Source of the DNA: Muribaculaceae bacterium
Lineage (GTDB): Bacteria > Bacteroidota > Bacteroidia > Bacteroidales > Muribaculaceae
DNA length: 64,000 bases
Reading direction: 5' to 3'
Assembly: GCA_017557425.1 (NCBI GenBank)
Contig: JAFYYU010000015.1
Span: 203,133-267,132 of the forward strand
A program made the position numbers and the translations under genes. How positions within the stretch are numbered: the first letter of the stretch is position 1; each line of letters begins with the position of its first letter. The notes under the pieces were generated by a model, which saw only the letters and a program-made list of their open reading frames with translations, searched no databases and was not told the origin of the DNA. This document shows positions 2,251 through 42,983 of this stretch, in pieces.

Positions 2251-2865
2251 GTGGCCGTATATAATATGTTCTTAAAAAACTACAAGTATTTTCATGATCC
2301 ATTCGAAAGGCTGGACCAAAAATGGCAGTATGCAATTGCCAAAGGTTACCTGACAGTAACCGAGACAGCTGAACTATCAGGATTCAGCCGCCAGTATGTC
2401 AACAGCCAGATTTTATCGGGCAAGATCAAAAGCGTAAAAGGCCGTAATGGAACCATCGGAATTCGTGCAAGGGAATTCACGAAGTGGTATTCTTCACTAG
2501 ACGTCCTTCCCTCATCTCCCATCGGGAAAAGCTCCTTTTCTCTGAAGGGGCTCATGAAGCAAATCAGAATGGGAAGGGCTTGGGTACTGAAGTTTGCCAA
2601 CAGGAATAATATCTCTTGCTATTATCTTGGCAAGTTCAGAAGATTTGACAAAGAGGAAGCTATTGCAGCCTGGGACAGAGAACGCTTTCTGTATCAAAAA
2701 TGGATCACTGTGGAAGAGGCAACGCTCAACATGGAGATCACACAGCACGAGCTGTACATGCTCGTCGCCACTCACCTGGTAAGGACAAGGAAGATGGAAT
2801 GCGTCCTCCACTATCTCAAGAGTGACATCGCAAAAAATATAGAAAGGAGGCAACACCATGTATAG
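2251..2865 (+). CDS. Helix-turn-helix protein partnered with integrase (excisionase-like)
   Basis: 204 codons from GTG 2251; ATG 2266 is an equally good start. I see three successive segments that look like MerR/excisionase-type winged helices: one around residues 30-72 (YLTVTETAELSGFSRQYVN), one around 95-140 (GLMKQIRMGRAWVLKFANRN) and one around 150-195 (WITVEEATLNMEITQHELY). Each is an N-terminal helix-turn-helix followed by a basic or strand-like wing. The gene overlaps the recombinase gene by 8 bases, so a role as directionality factor or regulator of the recombinase is likely by context. Not matched to a named family. Confidence 0.6.
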   Translation: MAVYNMFLKNYKYFHDPFERLDQKWQYAIAKGYLTVTETAELSGFSRQYVNSQILSGKIKSVKGRNGTIGIRAREFTKWYSSLDVLPSSPIGKSSFSLKGLMKQIRMGRAWVLKFANRNNISCYYLGKFRRFDKEEAIAAWDRERFLYQKWITVEEATLNMEITQHELYMLVATHLVRTRKMECVLHYLKSDIAKNIERRQHHV

Positions 2866-3973
2866 AGTTGCATTGAGATACAAATCAAAAAGAGGTGACA
2901 CCATGAAGTCTGTCTACCTTGAGTTCAGACCTTCCATTACTGATATTCGGGGCCATGTCATCAGATATGAGTTCCTGAACCTTGAGCTCTATACGAAGCC
3001 GAAAAACGCTATTCAAAAACAGCATAACAAGGTGATTGAGGAAGTTGCGGAGGAAATCCGATGCAAGAGGTATCTACAGTTGGTGAGAAGGGACTTCTCT
3101 TTTATCTCGAAAGACAATCTGGATGGTGACTTTTTGGAGTATTTCAGAATGAATGGTGACTATCATGGTCCAAAGTACGAATGCGCGAGGCTCCACTTCG
3201 AGAAATTCTGTAACCACAAATGCGCATTCAAGGATATTAACGGTGCTTTGTGTAATAAGTACAGAGCATATCTTTTGAGAGACACAAAGCTGCACGACGG
3301 AGAAAAGGAGCTGTCACATAATACAGCAAGTGCCTACTTCAATGTGTTCTTGAGTTTGGTCAAGCTTGCGTTCGTGGATCATGTCCTTGACGAGGATTAC
3401 ACAAAATATGTGAGACCAATCAGATGGAACCATGACACCCAGAAGGAGTACTTAAGCATCAACGAGGTACATCTGCTAGAGCAAACTCCATACGAGAAGT
3501 GCCCAGAACTGAGGAGAGCATGCCTCCTTTCCATCTACACAGGTCTAAGAAGGAGCGATGTACTGAAATTACATTGGGAGCAAATTGTAGACAGATCGAC
3601 TCAGAACACCTATATTGAGATCAAGATGTCGAAGACAGACCGCTTCGTCCAGCTTCCTCTCTCAAGGGCCGCCATAAATATCTTGGGAGAAAGGCAGAAT
3701 GAAGGATTGGTGTTTACGAAACTGACAGAAAGCATTCTGAATACACATCTTTCGAGGTGGCTCAAAACAGCGGGTATCAACAAACATATCACGTTTCATT
3801 GCTTTAGGCACACTTTTGCCATGATGCTTCAGGAACTGGGCACAGGAATATACGTCATCTCCAACCTGCTCGGTCACAAAAATGTATCAAGCACTCAGCT
3901 TTATGCCAAGATGAAAAGCAGTGATGCGCAAGAGGCAATTGACAGGATGGATAAAGCCTATGAAATGAAATAA
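2858..3973 (+). CDS. Tyrosine recombinase / phage-type integrase
   Basis: 371 codons from ATG 2858, which has GGAGG a few bases upstream; ATG 2903 is an alternative. It has a SAM-like core-binding domain (about 90-180) and a catalytic domain with all the expected residues: R231 (YTGLRR), K259 (MSKTDR), H314 and R317 (HCFRH), H340 (LLGH) and Y349 (QLYAKM). It should therefore be catalytically competent and is probably the integrase of the island starting downstream of mnmE. Length and architecture fit integrases of Bacteroidota mobile elements. The partner attachment sites could not be identified. Confidence 0.93.
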   Translation: MYRVALRYKSKRGDTMKSVYLEFRPSITDIRGHVIRYEFLNLELYTKPKNAIQKQHNKVIEEVAEEIRCKRYLQLVRRDFSFISKDNLDGDFLEYFRMNGDYHGPKYECARLHFEKFCNHKCAFKDINGALCNKYRAYLLRDTKLHDGEKELSHNTASAYFNVFLSLVKLAFVDHVLDEDYTKYVRPIRWNHDTQKEYLSINEVHLLEQTPYEKCPELRRACLLSIYTGLRRSDVLKLHWEQIVDRSTQNTYIEIKMSKTDRFVQLPLSRAAINILGERQNEGLVFTKLTESILNTHLSRWLKTAGINKHITFHCFRHTFAMMLQELGTGIYVISNLLGHKNVSSTQLYAKMKSSDAQEAIDRMDKAYEMK

Positions 3974-8207: not shown

Positions 8208-8239
8208 TTTGTTGATTAAAAGTTAATCATTAACTTTGC
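8208..8239 (+). promoter_or_regulatory. Promoter of the two-gene unit 8260-9727
   Basis: TTTG 8208-8211, 19 bases, TAACTTTGC 8231-8239. The start codon at 8260 follows with a GGAGG ribosome-binding site at 8255-8259. Confidence 0.75.
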
Positions 8240-8259
8240 AAACCAAAAAAAATTGGAGG

Positions 8260-9099
8260 ATGGAAACAGAACGACAACAATACTGCAGGGTAAAAATATT
8301 CAATATTGTCTTATATCCCGAAACGGATCAGGTAAGAGACAACTATATTGGATTGTTCCGTCACATATTTGATGATGGTATTTTAATATCGACATTTGGA
8401 GACCGAGCTACCCATATCCGCACACTATATGGTCCTGATGAAAACGGAGTTTTTCATGGCGATTTCTCCAATGCGATATATATCAAGCCAGACTCTGATG
8501 CGATAGATAGGAATACCAATCAGATTGTGCCTTCAGCCACAGATCCGAATAAAGGGCTTAGCGTTAAGATTTGGCCATATATTTTTGTGCCTGAGTTTCA
8601 TCGTATAGCCGTTATTGAACCTTTCCCTGATAAGCAGGTTTTGAAATTCTTAAAGAAGGCCATTGAGCAATATCGAGATGTTGACTCATTTGAAGTCACT
8701 TTAGAGAAGGATAGAGGCGTGTTGGAACGCATTCTTAATGCACCAGCCTTGTCAAGGTTAGAGGTCAATATTTCATATACCAACAATGACAACCACGAGG
8801 ACTGGGCTGAAGCGATTGATAACCAAATGCGTCAGAGTAATGCAAGGACATCTAAAACAGTTGTAACAGGAACGAAGCGAAATCCTATTGACATACGGCA
8901 GAGTGAGATGCTTCAAGCTTATGTTAGACTGAGCGGTTCCAATGGTCATACTATAGCCACAATATACGATGATGATGTGCCTGAAAGGATTGACACCTCG
9001 GAGCATCCCATGGTCAAAACCATCCCATACTATGGCAATTCGCCAACCTATGCGGTTTTTGATTTTATCAGACGTTTAGCAAGAGGTGAAAATGGGTAA
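8260..9099 (+). CDS. Unknown protein, possibly DUF4747-like
   Basis: 279 codons from ATG 8260, chosen over TTG 8236 because GGAGG precedes it and it lies 20 bases after the promoter. It is a soluble alpha/beta protein without a signal peptide. The N-terminus FNIVLYPETDQVRDNYIGLF, then ISTFGDRATHIRTLYG, is reminiscent of DUF4747 proteins, which are about this size and often found in accessory regions, but I am not sure of the match. The next gene starts 8 bases before this stop and encodes a small membrane protein, so the two very likely act together. No catalytic motif recognised. Confidence 0.5.
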   Translation: METERQQYCRVKIFNIVLYPETDQVRDNYIGLFRHIFDDGILISTFGDRATHIRTLYGPDENGVFHGDFSNAIYIKPDSDAIDRNTNQIVPSATDPNKGLSVKIWPYIFVPEFHRIAVIEPFPDKQVLKFLKKAIEQYRDVDSFEVTLEKDRGVLERILNAPALSRLEVNISYTNNDNHEDWAEAIDNQMRQSNARTSKTVVTGTKRNPIDIRQSEMLQAYVRLSGSNGHTIATIYDDDVPERIDTSEHPMVKTIPYYGNSPTYAVFDFIRRLARGENG

Positions 9100-9727
9100 G
9101 AAAATTACAAGTCCAGGTTGGAGCGCGGTATTTCAATGCTATACTTTACATAACTTGCGCCGCTCAGTTGTATGGCCGCTAATTATCACATTATTAGTGG
9201 TTTTATGCTCAATGGCATCGACTGAATCCCCAACAATACTTATTGATGCTGTGGCGACGTTATCTCTAACCATAGCACCCACAGTTCTTGGATTCACTCT
9301 TGCGGGTTATGCTTTGATGATGGGAATGTCAGGCTCAAAGGTCATGCAACCCATTCTGGACGGGGAAAAGCCAACATTGTTTCAAAAGTTGAACTCGACA
9401 TTTGCCATCGTGCTTGGTGCGTCTTTTATAACTACTTTGGTTTGTGTGTTTATCAAGATTGGCATGAGTTTCGTTGGTCACCTTGGCGCGCTTAATTATA
9501 ACTTGAAAATTTGCATTAAGGCATTTACTTTGTTTTCGCTGGTTTTCCTATTGATTTACACGATTTTCTCAATCAAGGATATAACAATCAATATCTTCAA
9601 TTTTGGTCAATTCGCTCAAACATACCATGATGTCCATCCAGACGACGAACGTGCTGCAGGAGACATTATTGTCATTAAAGAGAATCTTCTGATGCGCTTC
9701 CTCGATCGATTTAGAAAGAAATCGTAA
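9092..9727 (+). CDS. Four-helix membrane protein paired with the upstream unknown gene
   Basis: 211 codons from ATG 9092, preceded by AGAGG; GTG 9086 is possible. Four hydrophobic stretches are visible at roughly residues 25-43, 52-80, 105-128 and 147-165 (for example VVWPLIITLLVVLCSMAS and FTLFSLVFLLIYTIFSI), followed by a basic cytoplasmic tail ending LLMRFLDRFRKKS. There is no signal peptide and no known domain. Overlap with the preceding gene indicates a two-protein system. A soluble sensor plus a small membrane effector is a common design in abortive-infection systems, but that role is only inference. Confidence 0.6.
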   Translation: MGKKITSPGWSAVFQCYTLHNLRRSVVWPLIITLLVVLCSMASTESPTILIDAVATLSLTIAPTVLGFTLAGYALMMGMSGSKVMQPILDGEKPTLFQKLNSTFAIVLGASFITTLVCVFIKIGMSFVGHLGALNYNLKICIKAFTLFSLVFLLIYTIFSIKDITINIFNFGQFAQTYHDVHPDDERAAGDIIVIKENLLMRFLDRFRKKS

Positions 9728-13996: not shown

Positions 13997-16183
13997 TTAC
14001 GAACATTCATTCTCTTCCCCACTTGCTCTGTTTTCTGGTAAAGCATCTTCCATGAGACGATCGATGAATGCTTTGTTTCTTAATGAAGCACGCTCTCGTA
14101 GCACAGAAAATTTAAGAACCTCCATATACAAAGTACCATCAACGCCTGCTCCACTATCATCCGGTATCGTTTTCTTTGGCCTAAAAAGATAATCAAGATT
14201 AGGTGCAGTTTGAAAATCACCATCAACTGCTCGCACATCTCGTTTTTCCACGCTTTCACCTATAAGGTAACCATAGAAAGTAATAAACTTGAATTGAGGC
14301 TTTGTGAAGTTCCTGAGGAAATAGGCATACTTTGTTATCTGGTTAATGCAGTCAGCGACATTTACCTTTGGATTTTTAAACTCTATAATTACACATTTAC
14401 CCTCAGCAGGAAATAGTAATACATCAGTTCGCATATCTGCTCTCTTCTCTCCTAACGAATTTAGATAGCGCTCTTCCTCCTCGTCAATGATATCTTTGAA
14501 GATACGTTCACCATCCAATTTCAATTGCGATAGTTTGCTTTCTGAAGAACCCGTAAAATACATATATTCTTCATTTATAAGCCACATGTCGCTTGAAAGA
14601 GGATTATCACTATGCTGCTTAAATATGAGATTGTGAAGCAATTTTTCGTCCTGATTTCTTTTATCATCATCTTGACAATCTGCAAGACGATCCAGTATTT
14701 TACCCATTAGTTCGATTACCATCTTGCGTCGCGCAACATATTTAGACAATGTTGCGCGATTCTGAACGGGCAATGATTCGACTAAACTATCAACAATACT
14801 AGAGAGTTGATCTTGATAATCATCAGTTGTCGGATTCAACTCATTCAACTTCTGTACGCTCTTCTCGTATGCAGCACTTTGTTTCGCCATTACCTTTGCA
14901 TCATAGGTATATGCTTTTTTGAACACATCATCAATGGAATCACTCAATGATACCTCTAATAATGCATCTTCGGAAAGCAGATAATCTTTCTTCAACTGCT
15001 CAAGCCTTTCCTGAAACTCTTCATTCTGAGTTAATATTTCAGAATAGATCTCGCTTGCTTTTGCATTCACTCCATCTTGGATATCATTAAGCACAATCTG
15101 ATGCTCAATATATCCTTGAGCTTTAGCTACTTTTTTGAATTCTGTCTTATCTAATATCTCAATATTGCCACGCTCATCACCTTCTAAATCATCAAAATAA
15201 TCACTTGAAAGCAGGAATAAATATCTGCAATTATCTAATTCTGCATCTGGATCAATACATGTTAATTTTATCTTGGTGTTATCGCAAATCTCTCCTTTAC
15301 TAGTAATCTTTATCTCACTAGTTTGGAGCATATCTGCATTAATCTTATAGGGAAGTATCTTGATTGGTATATGCGTATCCTCTACCTCTTGGATTCTTTT
15401 CATGTCATCAGATATCTTACAAAGAGGCACTGAAATCAAAACATCAGTGCAAGTTGGATCAGGAATGTCATCAACTAGAATTGTATCACGATCTTTTACT
15501 TCCCCACCAATCTTATAAATAATGCTTATCAAAGGTAATGAATCCTTTCCATTACAAAAAGTAAGTAAATAGTGATTTATGAGTTTTTTCTTTATGTCGT
15601 CTGCGCCTAATTCGGCGTACTCTTTAGCATCATGTTCATTAGTGGGTAAATACATCTTGAGGGTAGTCTTAATCTCCTCGTCACCTTCTAGTGCAGTTGG
15701 CTCTTCTGTTTTATAGATAATCGTATTCTTATCAATGAATGGCCTTGTTCCGGATATAACGAATCCTCGCTTCATCAATATGTCTCCTTCCTTATAGATA
15801 CTATCATATTGGGATAACTGAAAAGCATGAATCATTTGAATTCGGCCAGAGCCTCTATTATTATAACCTTTGGTATCATCTTTAAAGACAACAAGTCGCT
15901 TGTAGTTATCTTCATCAAATCCTATACCATTGTCTTCGATGGTTAAGCTCGACAAATCTAAACTATCACCATCAGTCGATGAATTATAACTAAGTATGAT
16001 ATTGATATAAGGAGAAAAATCATCCCCTCTTTTTATCCGCATCTTGATCGACTCTAGACTATTTGTGAAACCCTCAAAGAGTGGTTGCAGAATATTAGCA
16101 GATTTTTTAATGCTCTTCAAGATGCCCGACCATTTCAAGTCATTGTACTTTTCGAACTTTGTTACATCATCAAATTTTATCAT
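13997..16183 (-). CDS. GHKL (HSP90/MORC-like) ATPase fused to a PD-(D/E)XK-like nuclease
   Basis: 728 codons. The N-terminal Bergerat ATP-binding fold shows the N box around E37 and N41 (LFEGFTNSLESI), the DNGIGF motif at 84-89 and the lid RGSGR at 110-114. A long middle part (about 200-570) includes charged helices that may form coiled coils. The C-terminal domain has D587, E601 and K603 in the pattern RTDVLLFP ... CVIIEFKNP, typical of PD-(D/E)XK nucleases. No signal peptide. ATPase-nuclease fusions of this kind are frequent in restriction-like and anti-phage loci. It is the third gene of a tight minus-strand operon with a DUF3307 protein (12-bp gap) and a SatD-like protein. Function unknown; defence is inferred from architecture and setting. 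Confidence 0.75.
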   Translation of the reverse strand: MIKFDDVTKFEKYNDLKWSGILKSIKKSANILQPLFEGFTNSLESIKMRIKRGDDFSPYINIILSYNSSTDGDSLDLSSLTIEDNGIGFDEDNYKRLVVFKDDTKGYNNRGSGRIQMIHAFQLSQYDSIYKEGDILMKRGFVISGTRPFIDKNTIIYKTEEPTALEGDEEIKTTLKMYLPTNEHDAKEYAELGADDIKKKLINHYLLTFCNGKDSLPLISIIYKIGGEVKDRDTILVDDIPDPTCTDVLISVPLCKISDDMKRIQEVEDTHIPIKILPYKINADMLQTSEIKITSKGEICDNTKIKLTCIDPDAELDNCRYLFLLSSDYFDDLEGDERGNIEILDKTEFKKVAKAQGYIEHQIVLNDIQDGVNAKASEIYSEILTQNEEFQERLEQLKKDYLLSEDALLEVSLSDSIDDVFKKAYTYDAKVMAKQSAAYEKSVQKLNELNPTTDDYQDQLSSIVDSLVESLPVQNRATLSKYVARRKMVIELMGKILDRLADCQDDDKRNQDEKLLHNLIFKQHSDNPLSSDMWLINEEYMYFTGSSESKLSQLKLDGERIFKDIIDEEEERYLNSLGEKRADMRTDVLLFPAEGKCVIIEFKNPKVNVADCINQITKYAYFLRNFTKPQFKFITFYGYLIGESVEKRDVRAVDGDFQTAPNLDYLFRPKKTIPDDSGAGVDGTLYMEVLKFSVLRERASLRNKAFIDRLMEDALPENRASGEENECS

Positions 16184-16195
16184 CGATTTCCTCTT

Positions 16196-16966
16196 TTAGA
16201 GTTTCACAACAATTATACCTATAAAAAAAGCTATTGCCAACGATACCAAAGAACCAGCCAACACATACTCAGACTTCTCACTCTCTGAGTGTGCTTGGCT
16301 AAATCGCAAAATAGACTTTGCTGTGAGCAAGAAACCTATTGCTTCGTATTGAGACAGAATAACAAACAAGAGAATTAATACACGCTCTATATTTCCTATC
16401 AGCGCGCCTGAATGAAAGTTTCCGTGATCTTCTTCAGCGACCTTTACCTTACAAGCTTTAAGAACTAATAATACCAGAACATTGGCAGGTTTCAAAACCA
16501 AAGCCATCGCTAATATCGTCTTTATCCATAATGGATGCTGCAAGTATAAAGATGCCACCCAGTTAAACTGACTCCAATCATTACCAACCAGGAACCAAAG
16601 GTTCACAATGCTAACTATAATACCTATATGAAGCAACTGGTCAACTACAAATAACGGTAAATCATATTTAGCATTTTTCCCATCAGTTACATTAAGTTCA
16701 GCAATATTTACAATATTGTATTTAACCTGAAAATAAGATTTCAGGCTGTCGATTGCAAAATGAGATATTATCAGCAAAAGAATTATCCACCAAGCAGCAC
16801 AATCCATAACAGCAAAACAGGAAAGAATTCCAATAATTATAGCATGGGTAATCATTCCCCAGCCACTCCAATTATTCTCCACTTTGCTCCTACACATGCA
16901 GCCATTTTGCAAATAAAAGTCACCTACAAAATGAGCCACCAATAAGTTTATTATCATATCTATCAT
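16196..16966 (-). CDS. DUF3307 multi-spanning membrane protein
   Basis: 256 codons. The N-terminus shows the DUF3307 signature: NLLVAHFVGDFYLQNG, then a Trp-rich segment and GMITHAIIIGILSC, then LLLIISHFAIDSLKSY, with conserved His and Asp inside membrane helices. I count about six or seven hydrophobic segments in total. The function of DUF3307 is unknown; it is commonly encoded next to SatD-type proteins, as here. The start overlaps the stop of the SatD-like gene by 4 bases. In-membrane His/Asp residues suggest metal or proton handling, but that is speculation. Confidence 0.8.
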   Translation of the reverse strand: MIDMIINLLVAHFVGDFYLQNGCMCRSKVENNWSGWGMITHAIIIGILSCFAVMDCAAWWIILLLIISHFAIDSLKSYFQVKYNIVNIAELNVTDGKNAKYDLPLFVVDQLLHIGIIVSIVNLWFLVGNDWSQFNWVASLYLQHPLWIKTILAMALVLKPANVLVLLVLKACKVKVAEEDHGNFHSGALIGNIERVLILLFVILSQYEAIGFLLTAKSILRFSQAHSESEKSEYVLAGSLVSLAIAFFIGIIVVKL

Positions 16967-17613
16967 AATTCTCTCACGATTTCTTTATAATACTCTATTA
17001 CCTGTTCAATAGAACTCCAACAGAGCGCATTAAGATTCTGATTAACCCCCGACGGGGTAATACCCATGTTCTTTGCAATCATATTCGCATCCTTATAGAG
17101 GATTTTCTCATAAAGTGTGCGACATCTACGAGCTGTAGTTTTATTAACCAAGTCATTGATTAGCGAAAACATGATTCTCAAAATTTGTTCTTGCTTTCCA
17201 TCAGCCATGGAGATAGTAAACGAATACTTCGATCTACCCACAAGGCTATCTAGAGCTCTTCCAGATCGATAGATGGCATCACCATCCATCATATCGCGAT
17301 CTCGACTTACGGTCTTCATATCACCTAAGCCAATTGCAATCCTAAGACCATATTTGCTAAAACTATATTTAGCATCGCTCTTTGGTACAAATGATTTTAC
17401 CCATGTTTTCAGTACAAGTGCTGCCTCAAGGGCATCCTCTGGCGATTTCAGAATGCATTCTATTGTGTCACCTCTTACAATACGTCCCCAGAAGCCCATA
17501 TATCTATCTTCAAGAAGAGCTAGGCACTTCTTGATATGCTCGTTAAGCCCTATCATGGACTCTATTGATAATGAAGTAGAAGAAACTACATCTGCTGATA
17601 TTGTTGCGTACAT
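16963..17613 (-). CDS. SatD-like protein: class III cyclase-like domain plus helix-turn-helix
   Basis: 216 codons. Residues 1-135 follow the class III nucleotide cyclase layout: ISADVVSST with D8 at the first metal position, VRGDTIECIL with D49 at the second, the strand GLRIAIGLGDM, and GDAIYRSGRALD (111-122), which parallels the GxxVNxAARL motif. Residues 160-210 form a helix-turn-helix (DANMIAKNMGITPSGVNQNL). This matches the SatD family, of unknown function. Both metal-binding aspartates are present, so nucleotide cyclase activity is possible but unproven. First gene of the operon with DUF3307 and the GHKL-nuclease; the HTH could regulate the operon through the palindromes in the leader. 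Confidence 0.7.
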   Translation of the reverse strand: MYATISADVVSSTSLSIESMIGLNEHIKKCLALLEDRYMGFWGRIVRGDTIECILKSPEDALEAALVLKTWVKSFVPKSDAKYSFSKYGLRIAIGLGDMKTVSRDRDMMDGDAIYRSGRALDSLVGRSKYSFTISMADGKQEQILRIMFSLINDLVNKTTARRCRTLYEKILYKDANMIAKNMGITPSGVNQNLNALCWSSIEQVIEYYKEIVREL

Positions 17614-17643
17614 ATTCTTATAAGTATTATTTCAAATGTTAAA

Positions 17644-17690
17644 ACAAGTTCTAGCACTTGTTTTCTGACAATACAAGTTCCAGAGCTTGT
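17644..17690. promoter_or_regulatory. Two near-palindromes in the SatD operon leader
   Basis: ACAAGTTCTAGCACTTGT (17644-17661) and ACAAGTTCCAGAGCTTGT (17673-17690), 29 bp apart, lie 31-77 bases upstream of the SatD-like start codon and downstream of the promoter. Good operator candidates. Confidence 0.6.
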
Positions 17691-17767
17691 AATTAGGCTT
17701 TGAGCCAATGTTGCTAACAGGGCTATTCATCGCCTTATTGCAGTGGATTAACTTGATATTTTGATTT

Positions 17768-17776
17768 GCAAATATA
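17768..17776 (-). promoter_or_regulatory. Promoter (-7 element) of the SatD/DUF3307/GHKL operon
   Basis: TATATTTGC on the minus strand, with TTG 18 bases further upstream. Gives a leader of about 145 bases that contains the two palindromes. Confidence 0.65.
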
Positions 17777-17925: not shown

Positions 17926-18375
17926 ACGGCAGTTGGACAATATGCTTATATGCGAGCCGACGGTGTAATGGTTATTCCGATAGCTTGCCTGAAAGATTAA
18001 TATTAGAATGATTATGACTCAACCGCTTTTTCTATTATATTATGCTATTTGTGAACTACAACTGATTCACCCAATGTCGATTCAGTTGAATCTACCAGGC
18101 GTTAAACTATGTCAAAAGTATTAAATGTGAAGGCTTTGAAAGTTGTACTTCAAAACTCTACCATAGTTGTACCGTTTAATATATAAATATCCGATAATCA
18201 ATTAACTGTAACTTCTGCGTGGAAAGGTAAATACTTATGCAATTTTATTGCAACTATATTAGTTTTAGTATCGTTTTTCCTTAAATAACAACATGAGAAA
18301 AATCTGATTTCGTTGGAAAAACAACACTAGACATCATTCAACTTACTAATACAACGCATTTTGCAGTCAATCATT
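17926..18375. other. Non-coding region holding repeat copy A
   Basis: No gene seen. Its middle part (18100-18232) is copy A of the 133-bp interspersed repeat. The rest is AT-rich without recognisable signals. Confidence 0.5.
18100..18232 (+). repeat. Interspersed repeat, copy A
   Basis: Starts CGTTAAACTATGTCAAAAGT and is nearly identical to copy B over the first 95 bases. Its 3' part has drifted and no gene follows it. Confidence 0.85.
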
Positions 18376-19660: not shown

Positions 19661-19743
19661 TTGAGAATTTCGGCATTTTTCAATATTCGACCATTGAGAA
19701 TATCGGCATTTTCTGCACTTTTCCTTTGATATTTGGGATTTTA
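19661..19743 (+). repeat. 33-bp-period repeats before ATPase gene 1
   Basis: TTGAGAATTTCGGCATTTTT (19661-19680) and TTGAGAATATCGGCATTTTC (19694-19713) are exactly 33 bp apart. A weaker third copy, TTGATATTTGGGATTTT, starts at 19726 and overlaps the -33 box. Confidence 0.75.
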
Positions 19744-19756
19744 TGGTTACATTTGC
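19725..19756 (+). promoter_or_regulatory. Promoter of ATPase gene 1
   Basis: TTTG 19725-19728, 19 bases, TACATTTGC 19748-19756. This places the transcription start after 19743, so ATG 19773 is the real start codon. Confidence 0.8.
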
Positions 19757-19772
19757 ACCTGATAATACAAAG

Positions 19773-21146
19773 ATGAAAATGGCAGAAAGAATTTTCAGAC
19801 GCAAAATATATGAGCAAATGCTGAGTTGGAAGAAAAATCAGCACGGAACGACAGCACTTCTTATCAGGGGTGCAAGGCGTGTCGGCAAGTCCACTGTTGC
19901 CGAGCAATTTGCCCGTAATGAATACGAGAGCTACATATTGGTTGACTTCTCAACAGCAACGCAAGCAACACACCGTTTGTTTGAAGATGTCTCCAATCTG
20001 GACTACATCTTCACGCAACTGCAACTTAACTATCGAAAAAGCCTGAAACCACGCAAGTCTGTCATCATCTTTGATGAAATACAGAAGCAGCCATTAGCCC
20101 GGCAAGCTATTAAAACACTTGTGGCCGATGGACGCTACGATTACATCGAAACTGGCTCTCTGTTGAGCATCAAGCGTAAAAGGAAGTCAGCTGGCAACTC
20201 CGAGCAACAGAAAAACATTCTCATTCCCAGTGAGGAAACGCACCTTGATATGTACCCCATGGACTATGAGGAGTTTCGTTGGGCATTGGGAGATGACCAA
20301 ACTATTCCCCTTTTGCGTACAATGTTCAACAATTTAAGTCCACTGAGTGATGATACGAATCGTCGCATGATGCGCGATTTCCGTCTATATGTTTTGGTTG
20401 GAGGCATGCCCCAGGCAGTCAATGACTACCTTGACACTCACGACATGAGCATTGTTGACCAACGCAAGCGTAGCATTCTTGACCTATACGATGAAGATTT
20501 CTACGACTTGGATCCATCAGGTCAAACCTCCGACCTGTTTCATGCCATTCCTGCTCAACTAAACAGTAACGCCTCTCGCTATCAGGTGAGTAGCGTGATT
20601 GAGGGAGGAAAACTGGATCGTTTGAGAGGTCAGATAAATATCCTCAAAGATTCCATGACCGTCAATATAGCTTATCATGCCAACGACCCAAGTGCAGGAT
20701 TGGCATCACACATCAACCGCGACCAGTTCAAATTGTTTTGCGGAGATACAGGACTATTTGTCACTCTCGCTTTCTGGGACGATAAATTTACAGAGAATGT
20801 CATTTACCAAAAATTGTTGAGCGATAAACTGAATGCTGATGTGGGCTATGTATACGAGAACTTGGTGTCACAGATTCTGACAGCCACTGGGAATAAGTTG
20901 TATTACCATACGTGGCCGACACCATCGGGCAAACATAACTACGAGATAGACTTCCTGTTGTCCCGTAAAGCTAAAATCTGCCCGATAGAAGTCAAGTCAT
21001 CGACATCCAATCTTCATGTTTCCATTGATGAATTCCAGAAGAAGTTCTCGGCCCGCATCCTTCAACGGTACCTCCTTCATTCAAAGGACATTCGGAAAGA
21101 ACGGGACTTGATAATGCTGCCAATGTATATGGCAATTTTTCTTTAG
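19773..21146 (+). CDS. AAA ATPase with DUF4143 domain (1)
   Basis: 457 codons from ATG 19773, chosen because the promoter lies inside the longer frame. The N-terminal AAA domain has Walker A GARRVGKS (33-40), Walker B VIIFDEIQ and sensor YIETGSLL. A winged-helix-like middle part is followed by the DUF4143 domain with a PD-(D/E)XK-like core, YEIDFLLS ... CPIEVKSS. Proteins of this type are abundant in Bacteroidota and archaea and their role is unknown. Preceded by its own 33-bp-period repeats and followed by copy B of the interspersed repeat. Related in architecture to the ATPases at 22.1 and 29.9 kb but clearly diverged from them. Confidence 0.88.
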   Translation: MKMAERIFRRKIYEQMLSWKKNQHGTTALLIRGARRVGKSTVAEQFARNEYESYILVDFSTATQATHRLFEDVSNLDYIFTQLQLNYRKSLKPRKSVIIFDEIQKQPLARQAIKTLVADGRYDYIETGSLLSIKRKRKSAGNSEQQKNILIPSEETHLDMYPMDYEEFRWALGDDQTIPLLRTMFNNLSPLSDDTNRRMMRDFRLYVLVGGMPQAVNDYLDTHDMSIVDQRKRSILDLYDEDFYDLDPSGQTSDLFHAIPAQLNSNASRYQVSSVIEGGKLDRLRGQINILKDSMTVNIAYHANDPSAGLASHINRDQFKLFCGDTGLFVTLAFWDDKFTENVIYQKLLSDKLNADVGYVYENLVSQILTATGNKLYYHTWPTPSGKHNYEIDFLLSRKAKICPIEVKSSTSNLHVSIDEFQKKFSARILQRYLLHSKDIRKERDLIMLPMYMAIFL

Positions 21147-21226: not shown

Positions 21227-21359
21227 CGTTAAACTTAGTCAAAAGTGTTAAATGTGAAGGCTTTGAAAGTTGTACTTCAAAACTCTACCATATTTGCACC
21301 GTTTAATATATAAATATCTGATGTTCAATAATTTGCATTTTCTGCATCGGCAAATAATT
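21227..21359 (+). repeat. Interspersed repeat, copy B
   Basis: Best-preserved copy. Contains CTTTG, 23 bases, then CATATTTGC, a possible promoter, and ends TTCTGCATCGGCAAATAA just before the start codon at 21364, so it probably drives that gene. Confidence 0.85.
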
Positions 21360-21363
21360 TAAT

Positions 21364-21885
21364 ATGAGCAATAATTCTTTGAGATTCAGAGTGTTTAAGG
21401 CAATACTAGCTTTGCCTATACCCGTTTGTATCATTATACCATCGATATTGCTGTATTTTTCTGATTGGCAACCGGGAGGTTTGCCTGTATGGAGGGCCGT
21501 AATCGGTGTAATTTGTTTCCTTGCAGGCATCTTTTTAGCAGTATCGACAGTGAGATTGTTCCCCAAACTTGGCAATGGCACTCCAGCGCCATGGGATCCC
21601 ACTACAAAAATGATAGTCACAGGCCCGTATGCCTACGTACGCAATCCGATGATTACGGGTGTTGTTCTAATTCTCATCAGCGAGGCTTTGATGTTTGGCT
21701 CATTGGCTATCGGCATTTGGGCAGTAGTATTTCTCATCATCAATATGTTTTACTTTCCCTTGTCCGAAGAACCTGGCCTTCGCAAGCGTTTCGGCAAAGA
21801 ATATGAAGAGTATTGCAAAAATGTGCCACGATACATCCCACGCCTAACGCCGTGGAAACCAGATTCGTCACCATCCTTAGAATAA
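21364..21885 (+). CDS. Isoprenylcysteine carboxyl methyltransferase-like membrane protein
   Basis: 173 codons with about four hydrophobic helices. The ICMT/PEMT-type signature is present near the C-terminus: GPYAYVRNPMITGVVL and the pair EEPGLRKRFGKEYEEYC, followed by VPRYIPR. Bacterial members are S-adenosylmethionine-dependent methyltransferases with mostly unknown small-molecule substrates. A second member lies at 41511-41993. Its promoter seems to be supplied by repeat copy B. Confidence 0.82.
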   Translation: MSNNSLRFRVFKAILALPIPVCIIIPSILLYFSDWQPGGLPVWRAVIGVICFLAGIFLAVSTVRLFPKLGNGTPAPWDPTTKMIVTGPYAYVRNPMITGVVLILISEALMFGSLAIGIWAVVFLIINMFYFPLSEEPGLRKRFGKEYEEYCKNVPRYIPRLTPWKPDSSPSLE

Positions 21886-22037: not shown

Positions 22038-22096
22038 AGTGGTAAATTATATTGAAAAGTGTATTTTTCTACTGCTGAAAATATTTGAAAAGTGTA
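22019..22096 (+). repeat. 33-bp-period repeats before ATPase gene 2
   Basis: TTGAAAAGTGTA occurs at 22019-22030, 22052-22063 and 22085-22096, exactly 33 bp apart each time. The last copy ends 6 bases before the start codon at 22103. Confidence 0.85.
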
Positions 22097-22102
22097 AATT
22101 CA

Positions 22103-23467
22103 ATGCTATACAGAAAGATTACATCATATCTTGAGGACTATTTAAAGTCTGATACTGACACGATTCTAATATTGGAAGGGGCCCGTCAGGTCGGCAAGTC
22201 ATTCAGTATCCGTGAGGTTGGCACACGATTGTACCCGAATTTTGTCGAAATAAACTTTGTGGAAGACGATGAGGGTCAGCAATTGTTTAAGAATATCCAC
22301 AGGAAAGAAGACTTCTACCTGACACTCAGTATGGTGGCTGGAGACAAGTTATCCAGTCGTGATGATACGTTGGTGTTTCTAGACGAGATTCAACACTATC
22401 CTCAGTTCCTGACCATGCTGAAGTTTCTGCGTGAGGATGGGCGTTACCGTTATATTGCTAGCGGCAGTCTGCTTGGCATCACTCTGCAGGACACAACCTC
22501 CATTCCCGTAGGCAGTATTATCCGCAAGGAGATGTTCCAGCTTGACTTCGAGGAATTTCTCATTGCCAATGGCTTTGGCTCTGAGGCCATAGACATGTTG
22601 AGACAATCCTACTTGAATCGTCAAAGTCTTACTGAGGAGCATCACAAACACGTGTTGGATTTATTCCGCCGATATCTTTTGGTGGGCGGATTGCCTGATG
22701 CAGTCAATATCTATCTAGACACGCATAATATCGTGCGAGTGCGCGAAGTGCAGGATGGCATACGAAGCCTATATGCGGATGACGCATCCAAATACGAAAG
22801 AGAGCACTCCAAGAAACTGCTTATACGCCGCATCTATGAAATGATTCCTTCACAGATGGAAAACAAAAAGAAGCGCATAGTGGCCCAGAAGATACGGGGA
22901 AAGGAGGGTGACCGTTTCTCCCAATATCAGGAAGAATTTGAATACCTGGTCTCGTCAGGCATAGCACTAGCTGTTCATGCCATATCCAATCCACATTTCC
23001 CCTTGAGTGAGTCTCTCCAGAAAAACCTGCTAAAGTTGTATCTAAATGATGTGGGGCTGCTTACCGGCCTTCTCTATCATAACAACATACGTCCTGTTAT
23101 CGACGATGTGAGAAGCATCAATCTGGGTTCAGTTTATGAGAGTGTTGTTGCTCAGGAACTGAGAGCGCATGGCCACAAACTCTTTTACTACGATAATCGT
23201 AAACAGGGCGAAGTGGACTACCTTATTGACGACCATACTGCAATGAGGCCCCATCCGATAGAAGTCAAGTCGGGCAAGGACTATAACGTACATAGTGCGC
23301 TTAACAATCTCCTAAAGAACCCCGATTACGATATTCAAGCAGCTACCGTCATCTCCAATGAGCGTGAGATCTATCAGAAGGACAAAGTCACTTATTTGCC
23401 CGTCTATTTTGTCATGTTCATGGAAATTGATACACCTCAGACAGATGAATCAGCATACATTTTCTGA
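22103..23467 (+). CDS. AAA ATPase with DUF4143 domain (2)
   Basis: 454 codons from ATG 22103; TTG 22085 is inside a repeat and less likely. Walker A GARQVGKS (26-33), Walker B LVFLDEIQ, sensor YIASGSLLG. The C-terminal DUF4143 domain carries GEVDYLID ... HPIEVKSG, the Asp and Glu-x-Lys of a PD-(D/E)XK-like core. A predicted winged helix lies between. Preceded by three exact repeats and followed by interspersed repeat copy C. Function of the family unknown; a nucleic-acid or quality-control role is often proposed. Confidence 0.88.
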   Translation: MLYRKITSYLEDYLKSDTDTILILEGARQVGKSFSIREVGTRLYPNFVEINFVEDDEGQQLFKNIHRKEDFYLTLSMVAGDKLSSRDDTLVFLDEIQHYPQFLTMLKFLREDGRYRYIASGSLLGITLQDTTSIPVGSIIRKEMFQLDFEEFLIANGFGSEAIDMLRQSYLNRQSLTEEHHKHVLDLFRRYLLVGGLPDAVNIYLDTHNIVRVREVQDGIRSLYADDASKYEREHSKKLLIRRIYEMIPSQMENKKKRIVAQKIRGKEGDRFSQYQEEFEYLVSSGIALAVHAISNPHFPLSESLQKNLLKLYLNDVGLLTGLLYHNNIRPVIDDVRSINLGSVYESVVAQELRAHGHKLFYYDNRKQGEVDYLIDDHTAMRPHPIEVKSGKDYNVHSALNNLLKNPDYDIQAATVISNEREIYQKDKVTYLPVYFVMFMEIDTPQTDESAYIF

Positions 23468-23548: not shown

Positions 23549-23681
23549 CGTTAAACTTAGTCAAAAGTATTAAAAATGAGGGGTGATGAAATAGGTACTG
23601 TAAAACTCTACCGTATTTCTGCCATTTAGTATATAAATATATGAAATTCAATTAGTTGTATCTTCTGCATCGGCAAATAAA
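23549..23681 (+). repeat. Interspersed repeat, copy C
   Basis: Same ends as copy B (CGTTAAACTTAGTCAAAAGT and TCTTCTGCATCGGCAAATAA) but diverged in the middle. No gene starts after it; the next gene converges on it. Marks the right edge of the AT-rich island. Confidence 0.8.
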
Positions 23682-23707
23682 GCTTTACAAAGAACTTTGA
23701 AGAACAC

Positions 23708-42058: not shown

Positions 42059-42358
42059 TTATTTACCGAATTTCCTTAAAAGGATTTTCAGTTCACGGCA
42101 GTCGGTGAGCAGGTTCCAGATGCCGTCCTCACTGAGCACACCGCGTTTCAGGTCTTTGGGTAAGAGTCCCATTTCGTCGTCGGCATAGTCTTGGCGCCAT
42201 GCCTCGCTACCGTAATACTCGTCTAGCGCTGCAATGTCCTGCTGGGCCGTCTCATATTTGTCGAGGGCTGTGGCGAGGCGTTTCACGGCAGCCGTGGCAC
42301 GGTCGAGGCGCCGCTCCATCTTGCGGATGCGGGCTATCTGTTCTTTATTGTCACCCAT
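42059..42358 (-). CDS. DUF4298 protein
   Basis: 99 codons, mostly helical (RIRKMERRLDRATAAVKRLA), with EYYGSEAWRQDYADDEMGLL and the end LLTDCRELKILLRKF, as in DUF4298. Function unknown. Seven bases downstream of the nitroreductase gene, on the same strand. Confidence 0.8.
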   Translation of the reverse strand: MGDNKEQIARIRKMERRLDRATAAVKRLATALDKYETAQQDIAALDEYYGSEAWRQDYADDEMGLLPKDLKRGVLSEDGIWNLLTDCRELKILLRKFGK

Positions 42359-42365
42359 AATCGTG

Positions 42366-42983
42366 TTATTTGATGTATTTCACTTTAGACTCGTCACGCG
42401 GCTTGGCTTCGGGCTGCTCGTCAGGATAGCCGATAGCGATGATGTAGTTCAGCTTGTAGTCCTCAGGGATGTCGAGGCGGTCGATAAAGAACTTGCAGCG
42501 CTCATTCGACAGCAGGAAACGCACCGGCCCGCCCAGGCAGCATGTTCCCAGTCCCAACGACTGTGCCGCCAGCATCATGTTCTCGCCCAACAGACCGGCA
42601 TCGAGTTCACCACCGCCCTTGGCGGGTGTACAGACGCAAATGAGGTTGGGAGCATTACGGAACATGTTCTTGAAGTTCGGATCTCGTTTTACCTGCTCGG
42701 GATTCTCCTGTATGAACACCTCGTTCACGTCGGCTATCAGCTGCTGGTCCTCGACCACACGGATGATCCACGGCTGGCGGTTCATGCCGCTAGGCGCATT
42801 GATGCCTGCACGAACCACCACCGCCAATTTCTCATGCTCGACAGGCTTATCAAGATACTGCCGCACGGAACGCCGCGCCATGATGTTGTTGATCACTTCG
42901 TTCTCATACACACTCTGTGCCGACATCGTCAGCGAGGTAAGCACTGCCATCAGGCCGGCAATAGCCAATATTCTCTTTTTCAT
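42366..42983 (-). CDS. Exported nitroreductase family protein
   Basis: 205 codons. A clear signal peptide (KRILAIAGLMAVLTSLTMSA) precedes an FMN nitroreductase domain: NIMARRSVRQYLDKPV, AGINAPSGMNRQPWIIRVV, GENMMLAAQSLGLGTCCLG and IIAIGYPDEQPEAKPR. Flavin enzymes of this type are usually cytoplasmic, so an exported version is notable. In an operon with DUF4298. Confidence 0.85.
   Translation of the reverse strand: MKKRILAIAGLMAVLTSLTMSAQSVYENEVINNIMARRSVRQYLDKPVEHEKLAVVVRAGINAPSGMNRQPWIIRVVEDQQLIADVNEVFIQENPEQVKRDPNFKNMFRNAPNLICVCTPAKGGGELDAGLLGENMMLAAQSLGLGTCCLGGPVRFLLSNERCKFFIDRLDIPEDYKLNYIIAIGYPDEQPEAKPRDESKVKYIK

Follow-up and report, generated by a model that had tools for sequence, protein, structure and literature searches.

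SatD-DUF3307, a gene pair with operator-like repeats that recurs in defence operons and precedes a paraMORC3-like nuclease in a Muribaculaceae genome

According to the papers cited here, several bacterial immune operons are headed by a dedicated regulator: CapW/BrxR, CapH+CapP and CapK+CapS, which respond to DNA damage, control adjacent immune operons, with CapK+CapS also found by restriction-modification (R-M) genes (PMC13373217), and RptR, which is located with type I R-M genes, has repeated palindromes in its own promoter (PMC12255303). Among the effectors, paraMORC3 comprises GHKL proteins that lie near R-M genes or stand alone and are prevalent in Bacteroidetes and proteobacteria (PMC2292703), while VcSduA of V. 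cholerae, a GHKL-Shedu protein of type I-D, protects against T1-like phages and loses defence in the mutants E27A and K557A (PMC12137116). Here, we analyzed a minus-strand set of three genes, encoding a SatD-like protein, a DUF3307 protein and a GHKL ATPase-nuclease, in a 64,000-nucleotide stretch of the Muribaculaceae bacterium assembly GCA_017557425.1 (contig JAFYYU010000015.1; referred to as the window). The source genome measures 2.58 Mb and is 85% complete.

We give a probability of roughly 55% to the reading that SatD and DUF3307 form a self-contained, autorepressed module that places the nuclease under its own control. SatD would be an autorepressor that binds, through its helix-turn-helix (HTH), tandem palindromes with a 28/29-bp period in its own promoter region; its cyclase-fold domain would sense a ligand, probably a nucleotide, and DUF3307 would be its membrane partner, with enzyme-like conserved His, Asp, Gln and Lys residues. 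Where such a module stands in front of a DNA-attacking gene, that gene would come under the module's promoter: in the window the paraMORC3-like ATPase-nuclease, most likely cutting invading phage or plasmid DNA, and elsewhere hsdR, hsdM or a TOTE primase-helicase. As in the Cap controllers and RptR, an HTH regulator, in many cases accompanied by a partner gene, comes first in defence operons of various kinds; with RptR in particular, the arrangement shares the repeated palindromes in the regulator's promoter and the association with type I R-M. At the sequence level, a putative immune gene in the window is preceded by a predicted HTH regulator whose own promoter region contains repeated sites. 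It differs from these controllers in the cyclase-homology domain, the DUF3307 partner and the 28/29-bp site period, and in that SatD-DUF3307 mostly occurs without a recognised partner operon; the WYL, peptidase and kinase+STAS parts of the Cap controllers had no Pfam match in the window SatD or DUF3307 (E ≤ 1).

The three genes are tightly arranged (Table 1), and their coordinates and strand are as in the initial annotation: the SatD-like and DUF3307 reading frames overlap by 4 bases (16963-16966), and 12 bases (16184-16195) separate DUF3307 from the nuclease. Together with the nuclease start codon this gap reads AAAGAGGAAATCGATG, a good ribosome-binding site. A single box upstream of the SatD-like gene, TATATTTGC, presumably represents a Bacteroidetes-type -7 promoter box, and the three genes are probably cotranscribed. 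The proposal that the first gene encodes a class III cyclase-like domain with D8 and D49, plus an HTH, was borne out. D8 and G48-D49 are invariant in 18 aligned SatD rows, and the profile built from these rows has matches among the class III cyclase structures of the PDB (3mr7, E 2.5e-5; Ma1120, E 7e-4), with D8 and D49 aligned to the Asp of the D-x-x and G-D motifs, which we take to be the metal-binding Asp residues of class III cyclases. This points to a two-aspartate class III cyclase-homology domain. The C-terminal HTH was found in homologue and profile searches. The window sequence alone had no cyclase match in the PDB, and it did not match PF16264 (SatD) at E ≤ 1, but it aligns over its full length with homologues that do; 7 of 10 homologues match this model at E ≤ 0.1, four of them above the curated cut-off. 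At E ≤ 1, PADLOC gave no model match for the three window proteins.

Inverted repeats upstream of SatD vary in sequence between genomes but have their layout in common. Of 136 distinct regions upstream of SatD, 95 contain a 7-mer repeated without mismatch at a distance of 28 or 29 bp, compared with 24 of 251 control regions (Fisher p 1e-34); the controls were regions upstream of other genes in the same stretches, some of which may share an intergenic region with SatD. The spacing is 28 bp in 50 and 29 bp in 47 of these 95 regions (both in 2), while repeats at 27 bp (3/136) or 30 bp (1/136) are rare. Two or more palindromes occur in 90/136 SatD regions versus 63/251 controls, two alike palindrome copies in 35/136 versus 7/251, and neighbouring alike palindromes are spaced by 28 bp in 22 and by 29 bp in 23 of 45 cases. 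An earlier half-site count, a weaker form of the 7-mer test, gave 27/83 SatD regions versus 2/78 controls. In the window, the centres of two palindromes are separated by 29 bp, and an 8-base sequence recurs at this same distance. Among 36 SatDs with arrays, those with alike HTH recognition regions also tend to have alike half-sites, beyond what the similarity of their cyclase domains accounts for (partial Mantel r 0.18, permutation p 0.001), as expected from a coevolving autorepressor and operator, suggesting that SatD may bind DNA at these repeats and repress its own promoter. Outside the Bacteroidota, two of four plasmid SatDs have the 28-bp repeat (Vibrio lentus and Salinivibrio); the SatD region of the E. 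coli plasmid pEC34A has no such repeat, and that of a Sphingomonas plasmid has just one 6-base repeat at each of the distances 29 and 30 bp.

The pair recurs in type I R-M operons of several lineages. Among 81 DUF3307 loci, 80 with SatD called beside and five of them plasmid stretches, nine stretches contain a GHKL-nuclease, an hsd-like or a helicase-like gene by model matches. The loci L036-L055 and L252-L316 are rank-ordered matches or were picked from them and are thus not a random sample. The gene order is hsdM-hsdS-SatD-DUF3307-hsdR-Piwi in L271, hsdM-hsdS-SatD-DUF3307-hsdR in L279 and hsdR-x-hsdS-SatD-DUF3307-hsdM in L296 (model matches only for the latter two), and Pfam matches give hsdR-SatD-DUF3307-hsdM-hsdS-nuclease in L066. 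A partly decayed copy of a type I R-M operon with the pair is found in L287, an hsdR-like gene lies nearby in L299 and L301 (on the other strand in L301), hsdM fragments stand just behind DUF3307 in L254 and L259, L304 has a weak match to an hsdR-like protein, and in L208/L210 a TOTE primase-helicase follows 4 bases behind the pair. Leaving aside L066, L057 and L210, which came from other searches, hsd-like genes fill 12 of 269 gene slots within two genes of the pair versus 2 of 498 beyond (p 1e-4). Among L066, L271, L279, L296, L287, L254, L259, L304 and L210, the 28/29-bp repeat was present in every locus tested. In L271, L279 and L296, the 174 to 221 bp between hsdS and SatD contain these repeats, suggesting that the gene behind the pair is read from the SatD promoter. 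Given that the pair stands repeatedly in front of R-M, paraMORC3-like and TOTE genes and has a repressor-operator layout, these genes are probably pair controlled. Type I R-M systems are known to enclose other modules, such as DarTG2 in EPEC (PMC12255303); in several of our loci, SatD-DUF3307 is likewise flanked by hsdS on one side and by hsdR or hsdM on the other. The window differs: no hsd sequence was found when hsdM, hsdS and hsdR sets were compared with it by tblastn (E ≤ 1e-3), and an R-M remnant was rejected on this ground. In L271 (G818:C13, 1962-11931), the R-M operon enclosing the pair ends with the Piwi-domain (Argonaute-like) gene, and in L315 (G112:C1, 3606-6324) an hsdS and a split hsdM lie beside, and divergent from, the SatD gene position.

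The second window protein belongs to the DUF3307 family, as proposed (PF11750, E 1.1e-20, 74.4 bits versus a cut-off of 23). Ten polar positions (H12, D16, Q20, H41, H69, D73, K76, D109, Q110 and H113) are at least 90% conserved across 17 rows, and short viral proteins in 11 loci match the N-terminal half; we read this as a possible enzyme-like site within the membrane, where the protein is presumably located. The DUF3307 profile had no PDB match at E ≤ 10. DUF3307 follows directly behind SatD in 76 of 83 distinct SatD genes, the other 7 SatDs having none immediately behind them. The open reading frame (ORF) caller missed DUF3307 in L281 and L308, SatD in L046 and the pair in L315, all of which are present by other searches; in L043, SatD but no DUF3307 was called, and L043, L281, L308 and L315 are outside the 81 DUF3307 loci. 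DUF3307 matches also occur on six Klebsiella plasmids of 3770 to 4424 bp. In L252 (G708:C10, 6727-8428), two genes (277 and 284 amino acids [aa]) without a Pfam match (E ≤ 0.01) lie 9 bases behind a SatD-DUF3307 pair of the window clade.

For the nuclease, the window protein was aligned with 63 of 75 long relatives (64 rows; 12 left out by a residue limit). The GHKL motif residues E37, N41, D84, G88, G111, G113 and R114 are invariant, as are E513, D587, E601 and K603 of the E-D-ExK nuclease, so that the assignment of the third gene as a Bergerat/GHKL ATPase joined to a PD-(D/E)XK-like nuclease stands. A more distant relative outside these rows (L037) is without E601. At E ≤ 0.01, Pfam matched HSDR_N in 41/64 and HATPase_c in 23/64 rows; by itself, the window protein scored 23.4 bits for HSDR_N, just under the cut-off of 25.1, and had a weak GHKL match (E 0.24). 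Matches to PADLOC models were scattered and weak, with Cas4 the commonest (10/64) and no Shedu model, and the profile matched only histidine kinases, weakly, and unrelated structures in the PDB. By its sequence, the nuclease is of a known, paraMORC3-like kind, sharing with paraMORC3 and VcSduA, at the level of architecture only, an N-terminal GHKL ATPase and a C-terminal restriction-fold E-D-ExK nuclease, as well as the occurrence alone or with R-M genes. In paraMORC3, an S5 domain separates the ATPase from the nuclease. It differs from them in being the third gene behind SatD-DUF3307, and from Shedu in that DUF4263, the Shedu signature, was matched by none of the 64 rows in Pfam (E ≤ 0.01), assuming that the library includes this model.

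Within five genes of the nuclease in 83 loci (80 genome, 3 viral; one representative per cluster identified), we found HsdM-like genes in 14 loci, HsdS-like genes in 14, HsdR-like helicases in 12, type III methylase-like genes in 5 and an AbiLi-like ATPase with a DUF3226 partner in 4. Ten plasmid matches were listed and seven inspected, two of these records carrying no annotation; one of the seven relatives adjoins SIR2 and DarT-macro genes and another a UvrD helicase. The initial annotation had seen in the nuclease the effector of a possible new anti-phage system. The neighbours (hsd, methylase and AbiLi-like genes) agree with its defence part, as do the hsd operons and TOTE gene around the pair, so that both halves of the set lie in a defence context; the novelty fell away with the known architecture. 

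The three genes travel jointly as one DNA cassette. The nearest named records in our scan for nuclease relatives are the Prevotellaceae and Bacteroidales metagenome-assembled genomes (MAGs) RUG330 and RUG13250, whose prefix presumably stands for rumen. RUG330 (L056) carries this locus, 99.8% identical over 4.28 kb, while RUG13250 (L057) shares a sharp-edged 4.4-kb block with all three genes at 94.2% DNA identity. In L057, mnmE (81%) starts 125 bp past the block, versus about 11.8 kb away in the window, and about 2.8 kb further on the other side L057 matches window positions 42358-42888 (79%). Since the flanks match around differing neighbours, the block occupies the same mnmE chromosomal hotspot with a different content of about 7 kb in L057. 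The cassette belongs to an accessory island that begins next to mnmE (644-2041); after this come an HTH_17 gene and a tyrosine integrase (2251-3973). The dN/dS ratios between the window and L057 are about 0.16 (SatD 0.164, DUF3307 0.164, nuclease 0.158), showing that all three genes are maintained by purifying selection. The upstream cassette edge falls inside a 140-bp repeat, likely a recombination site, of which the genome has three copies, all in this island. A phage origin was considered and rejected: 50,697 phage records gave no relatives of the nuclease (E ≤ 1e-3) or SatD (E ≤ 1e-2), and viral contigs gave three distant nucleases, two SatD-DUF3307 pairs and short DUF3307 proteins.

Among 395 genomes of the phylum, the nuclease was found in 4 (two via distant, partial matches), SatD in 104 and both only in the window genome. 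Nuclease relatives were collected by scanning species genomes with a six-row profile, limited to matches of two short peptide patterns, and keeping the best 80 of 161. In these 80 loci, SatD-DUF3307 stands directly upstream of the nuclease in L056 and L057, and in L066 with hsdM and hsdS between; in the other 77 no pair was found near the nuclease in the available stretch, some stretches being short. L056 is nearly the window itself, so that the strict set amounts to one lineage (2 records), and the pair was not found in L058, L059 and L060, whose nucleases are 66-70% identical to that of the window. A widespread three-gene system was rejected on these counts (1/395 genomes, 3/80 loci), and with it, given the paraMORC3/VcSduA architecture, the proposal of an undescribed three-gene system. 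Adjacency in this genome alone, which the initial annotation had named as grounds for refutation, is nearly, though not entirely, what we found: the strict set belongs to one lineage.

A chance adjacency of two unconnected parts, the SatD pair and a paraMORC3-like gene that otherwise stands alone, would agree with this rarity and with the pairless close relatives. The intact, sharp-edged block in a second genome, the 12-bp gap with its ribosome-binding site, the similar dN/dS of all three genes and the independent co-occurrence in L066 speak against such a coincidence, which we consider quite improbable. Signalling of the Pycsar kind, in which SatD would be catalytically active as a cyclase and its product would activate DUF3307, the nuclease or both, appears improbable as well. 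The invariant aspartates, the profile match to class III cyclases and the combination of a cyclase-like protein with a membrane protein are common ground with Pycsar, and one pair adjoins a PycTM gene on the Sphingomonas plasmid. However, no PycC or PycTM model in Pfam or PADLOC matched the window proteins at E ≤ 1, and the HTH and operator-like arrays set them apart from Pycsar. Class III cyclases carry an Asn and an Arg later in the domain. The SatD-cyclase profile alignment extends to column 104 and does not reach the later catalytic residues; in the corresponding region the sequence differs among the 18 SatD rows, that of the window being DGDAIYRSGR, by eye without the Asn, which is not decisive given that some SatD rows have one. 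A nucleotide signal made by SatD is hypothetical: the cyclase match stops short, and the operator-like repeats point rather to a repressor.

A weightier alternative, although a rather unlikely one, is that the pair is a toxin-antitoxin or abortive-infection module of its own, with SatD as autorepressing antitoxin and DUF3307 as membrane toxin, which sits in R-M operons like DarTG, the nuclease being a mere operon neighbour. The regulator-first order, the 4-base overlap, the repeated palindromes and the 68 of 80 pairs in which no partner was recognised would fit such a module, as would pEC34A (L272, NC_019077.1), a 3770-bp plasmid typed mobilizable whose gene content apart from the pair is rop, mobA and one small hypothetical ORF; this pair had no megablast match in 20,395 records of complete E. 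coli genomes. DarTG2 lies between hsdS and hsdR in EPEC, and this gap is named as a probable hotspot where independent modules of the defence or toxin-antitoxin kind become embedded (PMC12255303), which keeps the alternative alive. Unlike a free toxin, however, DUF3307 is represented in 11 of 12 viral loci by a core of 94 to 160 aa, with no SatD on the same stretch (four identical; the proteins, L212-L222, match the N-terminal half of DUF3307), and both window proteins exceed the usual size of such modules, whose proteins are usually smaller. The autorepressed control module that we favour has points against it, too. The window palindromes do not coincide with the recognised promoter box but lie 78 to 126 bp downstream; the repeat test was made on related sequences, with kinship correction limited to the partial Mantel test, and the repeat also occurs in 24 of the 251 control regions. 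The hotspot would fit a stand-alone module equally well. Moreover, 68 of 80 pairs have no hsd or nuclease model match or fragment, other defence genes not having been systematically searched, so that the pair must act by itself and control of neighbours is not its whole function. A bolder version, tentative and on balance doubtful, would make SatD-DUF3307 a new, widespread and self-contained membrane-acting defence or addiction module, in which a cyclase-fold repressor, reading a nucleotide pool through its two aspartates and seated on the strictly spaced 28/29-bp operator, controls an intramembrane His/Asp/Gln enzyme and is repeatedly wired before DNA-cutting effectors (type I R-M, paraMORC3, TOTE), one sensor arming both a membrane and a nuclease response.

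In the literature searched, which included no preprints and few subscription papers, we found neither SatD-DUF3307 as a recurrent part of defence operons nor the 28/29-bp array, which therefore appear to be new, and no function for either family: SatD yielded no title on defence, in searches partly swamped by other meanings of these letters, and DUF3307 only a jumbo-phage gene table. For both families, the association with R-M and anti-phage genes provides a definite hypothesis, with a reach of about a quarter of the phylum genomes for SatD and a predicted operator that is amenable to a simple binding test. If true, the module would bring a further sensor type, a cyclase fold with a membrane partner, to the small group of regulators known to control bacterial immune operons, and would put a paraMORC3-like nuclease under switchable control.

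Table 1. Positions in the window of the operon, its putative control elements and the cassette
Feature	Position	Strand	Evidence
SatD-like protein, 216 aa; class III cyclase-homology domain (D8, D49) and C-terminal helix-turn-helix	16963..17613	-	alignment, profile match
DUF3307 protein, 256 aa	16196..16966	-	PF11750 match, conserved polar residues
paraMORC3-like GHKL ATPase with C-terminal E-D-ExK nuclease, 728 aa (E513, D587, E601, K603)	13997..16183	-	alignment, Pfam, literature
Operator-like palindrome 2; centre-to-centre distance to palindrome 1, 29 bp	17642..17663		repeat/palindrome analysis
Operator-like palindrome 1	17673..17690		repeat/palindrome analysis
TATATTTGC, Bacteroidetes-type -7 box, candidate operon promoter	17768..17776	-	sequence motif
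Cassette: block in common with L057 (RUG13250), 94% DNA identity	13819..18216	-	DNA comparison
140-bp repeat, upstream cassette edge	18100..18239	+	further copies 21227-21366, 23550-23689

Additionally, the island contains other genes of note. At 8236-9727, a DUF4747 gene (PF15931, E 1.9e-22) overlaps a second, membrane-protein-like gene without a Pfam match; CarolAnn and RexAB-like phage exclusion pairs have the same make-up (PMC6426606), and this pair may be a second defence candidate in the island. Two related ATPases are encoded at 19743-21146, with a match to the PADLOC candidate PDC-S01 (E 3.7e-94), and at 22085-23467 (AAA_14/DUF4143). The 140-bp direct repeats lie one at the cassette edge and two behind these two ATPase genes.

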